In this document: piece by piece, positions 14,818 to 16,560 of the stretch
Position numbering within the stretch: position 1 is the first letter of the stretch
Layout: every line of letters begins with the position of its first letter
Source: a virus
IMG/VR virus record: IMGVR_UViG_3300047291_000009
Location: 1-34,613 of that record
DNA length: 34,613 nucleotides
Direction: 5' to 3' (one strand)
Notes under the pieces: generated by a model
What the model was told of the DNA's origin: nothing
Seen by the model: the letters and a program-made list of their open reading frames with translations, nothing else
The model's database searches: none
Position numbers and translations under genes: made by a program

Positions 14818-15193
14818 CTTTGCTTTCTATGTCTTCTGCTTCTATAGGGTTATCCCCTATGACTACGCCGCCAATGCCAGAAATAGTTATGTTAACTGCT
14901 GACCTCTGTTTTCCTTCTTTCTCAAACAAAGAAACGGGAAGCATTCTGTCCATACAGAGTTTGATAGCAGCCATTTGAGCAGGGTGTTCGTCATTCATGG
15001 CAATCTCAACTGCCTTGTGGACAACATTAGCACCTGCACTCTTGATTAACAGGTCTTTGAGTTCTCTTACTTGTTGTTGTTCAGTCTTAGGTAGGGTAAG
15101 TGCTTGAGGGTTATCAGCATACTTCCTCAAGGTCATAGCACCAGAACCCTTTGGTCTACCCCTTGTTTTCTTAAAGCTATCTATCACGTTCAT
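14810..15193 (-). CDS. Probable terminase small subunit
   Basis: 127 residues. A basic N-terminal KKTRGRPKGSGAMTLRKY precedes a helical centre and a conserved segment AAIKLCMDRMLPVSLFEKEG followed by VNITISGIGGV. I recall this last pattern from genes directly upstream of podovirus terL genes. It probably recognises the packaging start site, with the small basic N terminus contacting DNA. It is the first gene of the leftward virion block. Evidence is positional plus motif memory. Confidence 0.65.
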   Translation of the reverse strand: MNVIDSFKKTRGRPKGSGAMTLRKYADNPQALTLPKTEQQQVRELKDLLIKSAGANVVHKAVEIAMNDEHPAQMAAIKLCMDRMLPVSLFEKEGKQRSAVNITISGIGGVVIGDNPIEAEDIESKDV

Positions 15194-15523
15194 CTTTTAT
15201 CCAGTTGTGGGAAGAAGTTGTTGGTAACCAGCGTTGCGACCTACGGGTTTGCAGACCCACCCGATCAGGTATCTGGCGTACAGTTTCGTTACTCGACACC
15301 AACACGGCTGGAGACTGTTTGTGGGAACTACCATCTAGACAGTAGCCAATCTCCATGCGTCTTGGTCTTCCAACAAGAGTATGGACTGTTATGGTTGCGA
15401 CCCACACAGAGCATCGGGATGAATGACTTGGATTCGGCTAACTTGCAAGACACCTTACCTCAGAGGTCACATGACCGACTTCATACCTGCCAATCCACAC
15501 ACTTCTTGGAAGTTAGTACACAC
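15194..15523. other. Intergenic region between the divergent late and early blocks
   Basis: About 330 bases with no gene I trust. A minus-strand frame (15407-15177, GTG start) and a longer plus-strand frame are open but have no ribosome binding site or recognisable sequence. The region is richer in G and C than its neighbours and contains short complementary arms, e.g. GGGT/ACCC around 15240 and GGCT...ACTGT/ACAGT...AGCC around 15310-15350. I could not find a convincing leftward promoter for the terminase operon here, although one is expected. Confidence 0.5.
15457..15513. promoter_or_regulatory. Cluster of short palindromes upstream of early promoter P1
   Basis: Three inverted repeats: ACCTC-A-GAGGT (15457-15467), GGTCA-CA-TGACC (15465-15476, sharing three bases with the first) and ACTTC-TTG-GAAGT (15501-15513). 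The last ends ten bases before the -35 box of P1. They could be binding sites for a regulator of the early promoter. Small palindromes occur by chance, so confidence is limited. Confidence 0.4.
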
Positions 15524-15552
15524 TTTACATCAGAATCAGATTCTTGTATAGT
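15524..15552 (+). promoter_or_regulatory. Early promoter P1 (sigma70 type)
   Basis: TTTACA (15524-15529), a 17-base spacer, then TATAGT (15547-15552). This is close to the consensus with ideal spacing. Transcription would start near 15559 and run into the structured leader at 15582-15653. The -10 context TATAGTGT is repeated at promoter P2. Confidence 0.7.
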
Positions 15553-15558
15553 GTAGGT

Positions 15559-15653
15559 TAGTTTGATCGCACCAGACTATGAGCCTTTTAGAAGTGATAC
15601 AGCCTCCGTGCATTCGGGGGGTGCGACTGTGTCACCCCTAAAGGGCTTTTTTT
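15559..15653 (+). ncRNA. Structured leader RNA with terminator/attenuator features
   Basis: A ten-base-pair stem joins AGCCTTTTAG (15582-15591) to CTAAAGGGCT (15638-15647), with one G-U pair. Inside it GATACAG (15596-15602) pairs with CTGTGTC (15627-15633), and CCTCCG (15603-15608) with CGGGGG (15615-15620). Upstream TCGCACC (15567-15573) matches GGTGCGA (15620-15626), which would form a pseudoknot. Seven T follow at 15647-15653, directly before the ATG of the next gene. The right arm contains AAAGGG, the only ribosome binding site for that gene. So the RNA is either a short terminated transcript or a switch that hides the binding site. Confidence 0.55.
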
Positions 15654-15878
15654 ATGGCAATTCAACTGACACCTGAAGAACTGGCAAAACAGAGACAGCG
15701 TAAGGAAATGACGCAAGCATTGGAATCTTGGGAGAAAAACCTAGCCACCAAACTAGCAGAAGACAAGATTGCAAAACGCAAGGTAACCAACCCTAAGAAA
15801 ATACAAGCCTACCAACAAGGCGCAAAACAGTCATCTAAAAAGATTCTTAAAGCATTTGATGATGGGATGATTTTCTAG
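15654..15878 (+). CDS. 74-residue basic helical protein, first gene of the early region
   Basis: ATG follows seven T, with AAAGGG nine bases upstream inside a predicted stem. The protein (MAIQLTPEELAKQRQRKEMT...) is helical and rich in Lys, Gln and Ala, with a C-terminal KKILKAFDDGMIF. It resembles small early phage proteins that bind host enzymes or DNA, but I recognise no family. Promoter P2 begins inside its last codons. Confidence 0.55.
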   Translation: MAIQLTPEELAKQRQRKEMTQALESWEKNLATKLAEDKIAKRKVTNPKKIQAYQQGAKQSSKKILKAFDDGMIF

Positions 15879-15884
15879 TATAGT
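15856..15884 (+). promoter_or_regulatory. Early promoter P2 (sigma70 type)
   Basis: TTGATG (15856-15861), a 17-base spacer and TATAGT (15879-15884), with the same TATAGTGT core as P1. The -35 box and spacer lie within the end of the 74-residue gene. Start of transcription near 15891, leading into about 670 bases without a gene. Confidence 0.65.
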
Positions 15885-15890
15885 GTCAAC

Positions 15891-16195
15891 AAAAGGAGTG
15901 TCGGTTCTGCTACCCGACTCGACAGAGGGCAATCCTGTAAACCCCTGTTATGACCGCTTGGAAGCTGGTGTGCCATCGTAGTGACTACGCCGCATAGATA
16001 ATCCAGAATAAGCCTAGAAGTAGGCTCTCCTCGTGGCAGACACCCTAATCAGCTTACTGTTAAACATTAAACACCTATATTCTCTATCGGGTAGCCGCTT
16101 GCGCCCAAATGAAACTTAAAGACACACCTCACTGATTACCCTTTTCTTCCAACCAGATTATCTTTGTTAGTGTTAAACACTTAGATTGGCTTTTT
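15891..16195 (+). ncRNA. Candidate branched non-coding RNA
   Basis: There is no plausible gene here, but paired elements are dense. GTCGG/CCGAC pair near 15900-15920. ACAG.GGG pairs with CCC.CTGT near 15922-15950. A closing stem GGTGTGCCA (15967-15975) pairs with TGGC-AG-ACACC (16034-16044). It encloses two hairpins: CGTAG-TGA-CTACG (15977-15989) and AGCCTA-GAAG-TAGGCT (16011-16026). A final interrupted stem (CCA, ATCT, AGTGTT pairing with AACACT, AGAT, TGG; 16153-16189) is followed by CTTTTT. Together with P2 this suggests a transcript of about 300 nt. Its family is unknown. Large ornate phage RNAs such as GOLLD or ROOL are possible relatives, but I cannot show this. Confidence 0.5.
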
Positions 16196-16296
16196 CAGTG
16201 CGGAGGAGGCTGCCACAAATATTACAGACACACGACCACCCCCTCCCCCCTATCAAATTGATAACGATAGCGAAGTAAGCACTAACTAACACTTAC

Positions 16297-16351
16297 TAGG
16301 GCAAACCCTATATGCTCATTACAGCATAAACTATATGCGGTCGACAGCATA
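16297..16351. promoter_or_regulatory. Iterated operator: TAGGG/CCCTA repeat plus two TATGC-N8-GCATA sites
   Basis: TAGGG-CAAA-CCCTA occupies 16297-16310. Two inverted repeats of identical design follow: TATGC-N8-GCATA at 16311-16328 and 16334-16351, 23 bp centre to centre. A third GCATA (16370-16374) follows the palindrome GGATCGATCC. Equal design and near two-turn spacing suggest cooperative binding of one dimeric protein, as at a repressor operator or a replication origin. The rest of 16196-16420 shows no gene; it is AT-rich on its right side. Confidence 0.5.
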
Positions 16352-16420
16352 TGATATAGGATCGATCCAGCATAATCGACAAACCCGATATATCACAGTT
16401 TGATAAATAGTTAAAACCTA

Positions 16421-16448
16421 TTGACTAGCATTAGTTGATAGATATTAT
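16421..16448 (+). promoter_or_regulatory. Promoter P3a (sigma70 type)
   Basis: TTGACT (16421-16426), a 16-base spacer and TATTAT (16443-16448). It would drive the 16561-18479 gene group. It lies between the iterated operator and promoter P3b. Confidence 0.55.
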
Positions 16449-16474
16449 TAGTGTGGGCTTAGGGTAAGTACTGA

Positions 16475-16503
16475 TTACATAGTGTCTGACATAACGTTAT
16501 ATT
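16475..16503 (+). promoter_or_regulatory. Promoter P3b with an operator palindrome in its spacer
   Basis: TTACAT (16475-16480), 17 bases, TATATT (16498-16503). The spacer contains the palindrome TGTCTGACA (16483-16491), a box also present at 21583, 21617 and 23305. A protein bound there would block RNA polymerase. The first downstream gene starts at 16561. Confidence 0.6.
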
Positions 16504-16560
16504 AGTAGCACTGGTTAAGAATAATCAGTGTTTCAACAACCATCTAAACAGGCGTACATT

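Follow-up and report, generated by a model that had tools for sequence, protein, structure and literature searches.

A pseudoknotted leader RNA with an intrinsic-terminator-like stem that holds the ribosome site, found ahead of differing genes in uncultivated freshwater phages

A genuine, strongly conserved structured RNA of about 95 bases, preceded by a promoter and followed by the first gene to one side of the terminase genes, lies at positions 15560–15653 of the 34,613-nucleotide stretch of viral DNA analysed here (IMG/VR record IMGVR_UViG_3300047291_000009, positions 1 to 34,613; hereafter the window). It begins approximately at the predicted transcription start and ends at the start codon, and its second hairpin has a base that looks like an intrinsic terminator and contains the ribosome site. 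As far as Rfam and the open-access literature reach, this leader RNA is undescribed, although absence there is no proof.

The leader RNA and its fold

A first-pass annotation had described in this region a promoter, a 10-bp outer stem with AAAGGG in its right arm, seven T and an ATG, all of which are present in the window. The innermost stem has the 6 bp given there, whereas the inner stem taken to have 7 bp is a middle stem of 9 bp (GTGATACAG/CTGTGTCAC). The elements, all on the plus strand, are the following:

15524–15552, plus strand: sigma70-like promoter TTTACA-17-TATAGT, a consensus match
15560–15578, plus strand: 5' hairpin H1 at the predicted transcript start, with a 6-bp stem AGTTTG/CAGACT (15560–15565/15573–15578) and the loop ATCGCAC
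15567–15572, plus strand: first strand of the pseudoknot, TCGCAC in the H1 loop; C15573 lengthens the pairing to 7
15582–15591, plus strand: 5' arm of the outer stem P1, AGCCTTTTAG, obtained in the MFE fold, in the alignment and with RNAalifold
15594–15602, plus strand: 5' arm of the middle stem P2, GTGATACAG, 9 bp
15603–15620, plus strand: inner hairpin P3, with the variable 6-bp stem CCTCCG/CGGGGG
15621–15626, plus strand: second strand of the pseudoknot, GTGCGA, in the bulge between P3 and P2
15627–15635, plus strand: 3' arm of P2, CTGTGTCAC, which pairs with GTGATACAG
15638–15647, plus strand: 3' arm of P1, CTAAAGGGCT, which holds the ribosome site TAAAGG (15639–15644)
15647–15653, plus strand: terminator-like run of seven T, which is the spacer from the ribosome site to the ATG at 15654
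15654–15878, plus strand: open reading frame of a basic 74-aa protein with a two-helix model; its ATG directly follows the T run

P1 has 10 bp in the window and 11 bp in the MFE fold. When the 102-nt leader was folded, the MFE was -42.2 kcal/mol against -25.7 +/- 3.4 kcal/mol in shuffles (z = -4.8), and none of 200 shuffles was as low. The two hairpins are joined by the pseudoknot TCGCACC/GGTGCGA, in which the loop of H1 meets the bulge between P3 and P2. A pseudoknot of 7 bp had been suspected at first. Its strands are indeed complementary in all 50 distinct relatives described below, but the partner strand belongs to the H1 hairpin, which had been missed. The pairing consists of six pairs and a seventh that shares the closing pair of H1.

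Relatives and covariation

When the 74-aa protein was used as a query, it retrieved 12 viral contigs, every one with the same leader. Two DNA-pattern scans were run for more leaders, and the complete one, in which the pseudoknot was left unconstrained, returned 75 contigs. These relatives, class A, comprise 50 distinct leaders from about 75 IMG/VR contigs of uncultivated freshwater phages. The pseudoknot occurs among them in six versions (TCGCACC, TTGCGCC, TCGCGCC, TCGCGTC, TCTAGCC and TCGTGCC), each with a complementary bulge, and the stem of H1 also varies in step (AGTCTG/CAGACT, AGTTTG/CAAACT, ATCTG/CAGAT, ACTTG/CAAGT).

Two alignments were analysed: A3, with 39 distinct rows, and A9, with 32 sequences including more distant relatives, in which P2 is GTGGTATAG/CTATGCCAC and GAGGATATAG/CTATATCTTC. 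In A3, two-sided changes were found in 5/6 pseudoknot pairs, with no broken cell, and in 4/6 pairs of H1. Compensatory changes in homologues had been named beforehand as the test of the proposed structure, and they are present: A9 shows two-sided changes in 18 of 37 pairs against 10.1 +/- 1.3 in shuffles, none of 500 shuffles reaching 18, a comparison to be read as a guide and not as a probability, given that kinship inflates two-sided counts. By helix, these changes fall on 5/6 pairs of H1, 5/6 of the pseudoknot (none broken), 4/9 of P2 and 4/6 of P3. In the same alignment 99.0% of the cells pair, against 38–48% with the partners slid, and RNAalifold, unprompted, recovered the same nested helices.

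P1 behaves otherwise. Within class A it shows one-sided, pair-keeping changes only and no two-sided ones, and a G-G mismatch occurs in 3/39 rows of A3 and 2/32 of A9. On the sequence comparison, its pairing is supported in class A by conservation together with wobble changes, and between classes by the differing complementary arms presented below. P1, the ribosome site, the six or seven T and the ATG are thus near-invariant in class A, while H1, P2, P3 and the pseudoknot change in a compensatory manner.

Promoter, terminator and ribosome site

Relatives carry a promoter at the same place with another sequence (TTGACA-17-TACAAT). The best sigma70-like site reached at least 8/12 in all 42 distinct class A upstreams, compared with 17% in shuffles. 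In these upstreams 5 or 7 nt separate the end of the -10 box from H1 and, therefore, going by the promoter consensus, the probable start of the RNA is H1 itself or a position one or two bases away. Upstream of the promoter, the non-coding DNA at 15370–15499 of the window is absent from many relatives and shares 73% identity with an intergenic stretch of phage MW202484.

Every class A copy has 6–7 T/C after the base of P1 (AGCC/GGCT), in accordance with what defines an intrinsic terminator in sequence (a GC-containing stem and then at least 5–6 U). A simple terminator scan with a loop limit of 8 nt passed over it solely because of that limit. The spacer between GGC and ATG consists of T/C only; 48 distinct relatives have 7 nt there and 3 have 6 nt, a change of T-run length (6/7) that shifts any upstream frame. 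The ribosome site lies wholly within P1 in every class A copy and is the sole one for the gene; this agrees with the first-pass annotation, which had placed the site of the 74-residue gene in the right arm of P1, and no other was found.

The stem formed by P1 and P2, about 21 layers just before the gene, would also suit an RNase III processing site of the T7 kind, heading an early operon of the phage. Such a site accounts neither for the strict +1 start nor for the T run and the conservation of the kissing loop, and we regard this explanation as highly improbable.

Genes and second RNAs behind the leader

The gene order at the leader loci consists of portal, TerL and TerS on one strand, followed by the leader and its gene on the opposite strand. 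In the leaders checked, the open reading frame at the ATG came from one of two unrelated families: the 74-aa basic protein, or an HNH nuclease of 149–153 aa (PF01844, E = 8e-11). Each of the six pseudoknot versions occurs with both gene families. The 74-aa protein had no Pfam match above the cut-off and no PHROG or PADLOC match. Its model consists of two long helices (mean pLDDT 80) and had no significant PDB match; from this model, a likeness to helical hairpins that bind kissing RNAs, such as Rop, may be considered, only as a thought.

Two further elements of the window lie at the end of this gene:

15856–15884, plus strand: promoter-like site TTGATG-17-TATAGT, weak (9/12), overlapping the end of the 74-aa gene
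15895–16125, plus strand: second non-coding RNA candidate of about 230 nt, directly behind the 74-aa gene, with which it travels

This second candidate is conserved, with a few compensatory pairs, and contains a long-range pairing, GCTACCCGA/TCGGGTAGC. In HNH-bearing relatives the same place is taken by another conserved RNA candidate, unrelated to the first and about 228 nt long (525–752 of L109, and 20 further loci), also with a few compensatory pairs. Gene and second RNA candidate are swapped together behind an unchanged leader. Neither of the two candidates had an Rfam match. Between the second RNA candidate and the next genes, the window is AT-rich and gene-free at 16180–16540, a stretch that may serve as an origin or for control.

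Further RNA classes with this design

With a model derived from A3, a second RNA was detected at 24–29 bits in L131 and L109, which defines class B. Class C was obtained in a structure-descriptor scan, in which the matches L115 and L020 were judged to be due to chance. The classes comprise at least 75 (A), 52 (B) and 79 (C) contigs:

Class B, 1476–1584 of L131 and 5087–5175 of L109; 52 contigs: RNA with its own promoter-like site and P1 GCCACTTA/TAAGTGGC
Class C, 444–556 of L019 and 681–794 of L218; 79 contigs, and also MW202462 and MW202544: RNA from the structure-descriptor scan

In class B the loop of H1 is GTGGAAA or GTGAGAA and the bulge TTTCCAC or TTCTCAC, with one mixed, partly broken copy (L188). 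There is often no consistent open reading frame start behind these RNAs. Most of them are followed by a short conserved stretch, CCGTACTCC(A/G)CACGATAG (from about 1580 onward in L131), which reads RTPHDS in one frame. The low-scoring match by which class B was found suggests a shared ancestry of classes A and B. In class C, the H1 loop pairing TTGGCGG/CCGCCAA is joined by a second pseudoknot, in which the linker pairs with the loop of P3 and 3/6 pairs have two-sided changes; both pseudoknots covary. The T run is followed after 11–14 nt by the ATG of many unrelated genes, which by sequence resemblance include replication, HNH and GIY-YIG-like genes among others. This class has a less distinct promoter, with 32/55 upstreams reaching 8/12.

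Scans for the two outer stems with any core returned many more combinations, with complementary partners of 7–10 bp; when the core is shuffled, 0.2% of cases have a partner of 9 bp and 5% one of 7 bp. Among them, L293, L295, L303, L304, L308, L309, L318–L320 and L323 share the class A type of outer stem (GCCTTTTAG/CTAAAGGGC) around another core, with a partner of 9–10 bp near the 5' end (e.g. TGTGnnGGCA/TGCCnnCACA). They have long linkers and no ATG at the T run, where TGCGTTTAG replaces it.

In all classes the unit spans promoter to T run. This raises the alternative of a self-contained small RNA of about 95 nt, with a 5' hairpin at +1 and an intrinsic terminator, acting in trans or as a structural element or decoy, the gene being fed by read-through only. 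Class B, which has the same design with unrelated sequence, two pseudoknot versions and often nothing consistent to translate behind it, speaks for such an RNA, as do the relatives with TGCGTTTAG where the ATG would be. Nevertheless, the ATG directly at the T run in class A and the ribosome site within P1 in every copy are needless for a pure small RNA, and no conserved unpaired seed for finding a target was identified. We hold this alternative to be rather unlikely, though it is the main rival of the reading given below.

Comparison with known systems

No match was obtained in the window with Rfam 15 at the gathering cut-off, a permissive search yielding only a chance snoRNA (E = 2.7), and there was none for the leader relatives. 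In the phage records searched, classes A and B were absent and class C was found in no more than two genomes, both assembled from Manatee Spring metagenomes. Among 84,980 species of bacteria and archaea, exact-pattern scans returned no member of classes A and C.

Riboswitches commonly combine a pseudoknotted core with a terminator and a hidden ribosome site. With attenuators and terminating riboswitches the leader shares a structured 5' region, a GC-based stem and U run ahead of the gene, and a ribosome site in a stem; here, in contrast, the terminator stem is itself the ribosome-site stem and ends at the ATG, and unrelated genes stand behind one leader. The initial reading as a riboswitch or attenuator design is borne out as to the conserved fold, the terminator-like T run and the hidden ribosome site, but no ligand, metabolic gene or conserved antiterminator was found. 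Rfam confirmed the accompanying remark that no known riboswitch class is recognisable. A metabolite riboswitch in the strict sense would agree with this layout; the lack of an Rfam class match, the non-metabolic nature of the downstream genes (a small protein or an HNH nuclease) and the occurrence of the design in classes without a common core sequence make it quite improbable.

The putL/putR RNA of phage HK022, of about 70 nt, forms two stem-loops behind an early promoter and suppresses distant terminators, with none inside (PMC9378689). Both it and the leader are two-hairpin RNAs directly behind a promoter, which we assume to be early in our case. In the leader, however, every copy has its second hairpin closed by the T run, and the two hairpins are linked by kissing; the internal terminator rules out an antiterminator RNA of the put type. 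Type III toxin-antitoxin loci (ToxIN) have the order promoter, tandem-repeat pseudoknot RNA, terminator and ToxN-like protein gene (PMC5086642), and the order of promoter, pseudoknotted RNA, terminator and protein gene is shared by the leader loci. There is, on the contrary, no tandem repeat in 15190–16279 and a single RNA unit per locus, RNA version and protein family are unmatched, and no protein of the ToxN/CptN/TenpN family was found, the 74-aa protein lacking a PHROG or PADLOC match and remaining below the Pfam cut-off while the other gene is HNH. This type of system was therefore rejected. The Downstream-peptide and glnA motifs are structured RNAs ahead of short open reading frames in environmental sequences (PMC2864571); they differ in their hosts, and the leader has no Rfam match. 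The OMEGA or HEARO RNA of IscB was also discarded, as the neighbouring protein of about 151 aa has an HNH match only, with no RuvC, and there is no Rfam match.

Cis and trans kissing

A rigid A-form estimate, which ignores bending at the 2x2 internal loop, indicates that kissing in cis needs 2–3 basal pairs of P1 to be open in class A and about one in class B. The partners could then sit on separate molecules and form RNA dimers or rings, as happens with the packaging RNA of phi29. That RNA resembles the leader in being small, in lying close to packaging genes and in having a loop and a bulge whose complementarity covaries. The loops of the leader are complementary within every molecule, as intermolecular kissing requires, and the RNA adjoins the terminase genes. 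The leader differs from the phi29 RNA in that it ends in a terminator and in that its phages have both terminase subunits, and it has no match to the corresponding Rfam family, by which it was set aside as a packaging RNA of this kind. The modelling is, moreover, crude, and longer pseudoknots come with longer linkers, which suggests a contact in cis. Kissing between molecules is, in our judgement, improbable.

A possible lock on gene expression

The reading that we favour, for which we see the chances as evenly balanced, is that the leader is a cis-acting attenuator that is off by default and combines a terminator with a hidden ribosome site. By default, the polymerase would transcribe the leader, with H1 folding first, the kissing pseudoknot next and P2 and P1 last, and would release an RNA of about 95 nt at the T run. 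Read-through transcripts would keep P1 closed and be poorly translated, so that the gene would be doubly locked and its expression would require P1 to be held open. The pseudoknotted core would be the part on which a protein, a small molecule or a state of the polymerase could act. The retention of the T run and of the ribosome site in P1 while the gene varies is the pattern expected of a lock placed before a gene. Against a lock, different genes follow the leader while its RNA stays the same, and no gene-specific feedback is visible.

In class A the kissing contact would strain the lowest 2–3 pairs of P1, and pseudoknot and terminator may compete, a speculative step given the crude geometry; the energies are of the same order (-6.7 to -9.4 kcal/mol for the pseudoknot helix and -9.4 to -12.4 kcal/mol for P1). 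The long-linker subclasses are free of this strain and, therefore, it is not a general rule. No conserved alternative antiterminator pairing was found; a pairing of the 5' AGG with the CCT of P1, present in the window, was dropped because it is not conserved in relatives.

More broadly, and with the chances somewhat against it, we tentatively propose a large, undescribed superfamily of short freshwater-phage RNAs with a 5' hairpin at the start, whose loop kisses the bulge of a second hairpin with a terminator at its base. Outer stem, core and pseudoknot would be exchanged as modules, the RNAs would stand ahead of differing genes or alone, and kissing would set the closure of the stem that holds the terminator and the ribosome site.

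Our results add three or more RNA classes with support from covariation, none of which is in Rfam. Should the lock model be true, these phages restrain genes such as those of nucleases and replication proteins by RNA structure alone, and the kissing loop would offer a clean handle on the control of intrinsic termination by a pseudoknot.
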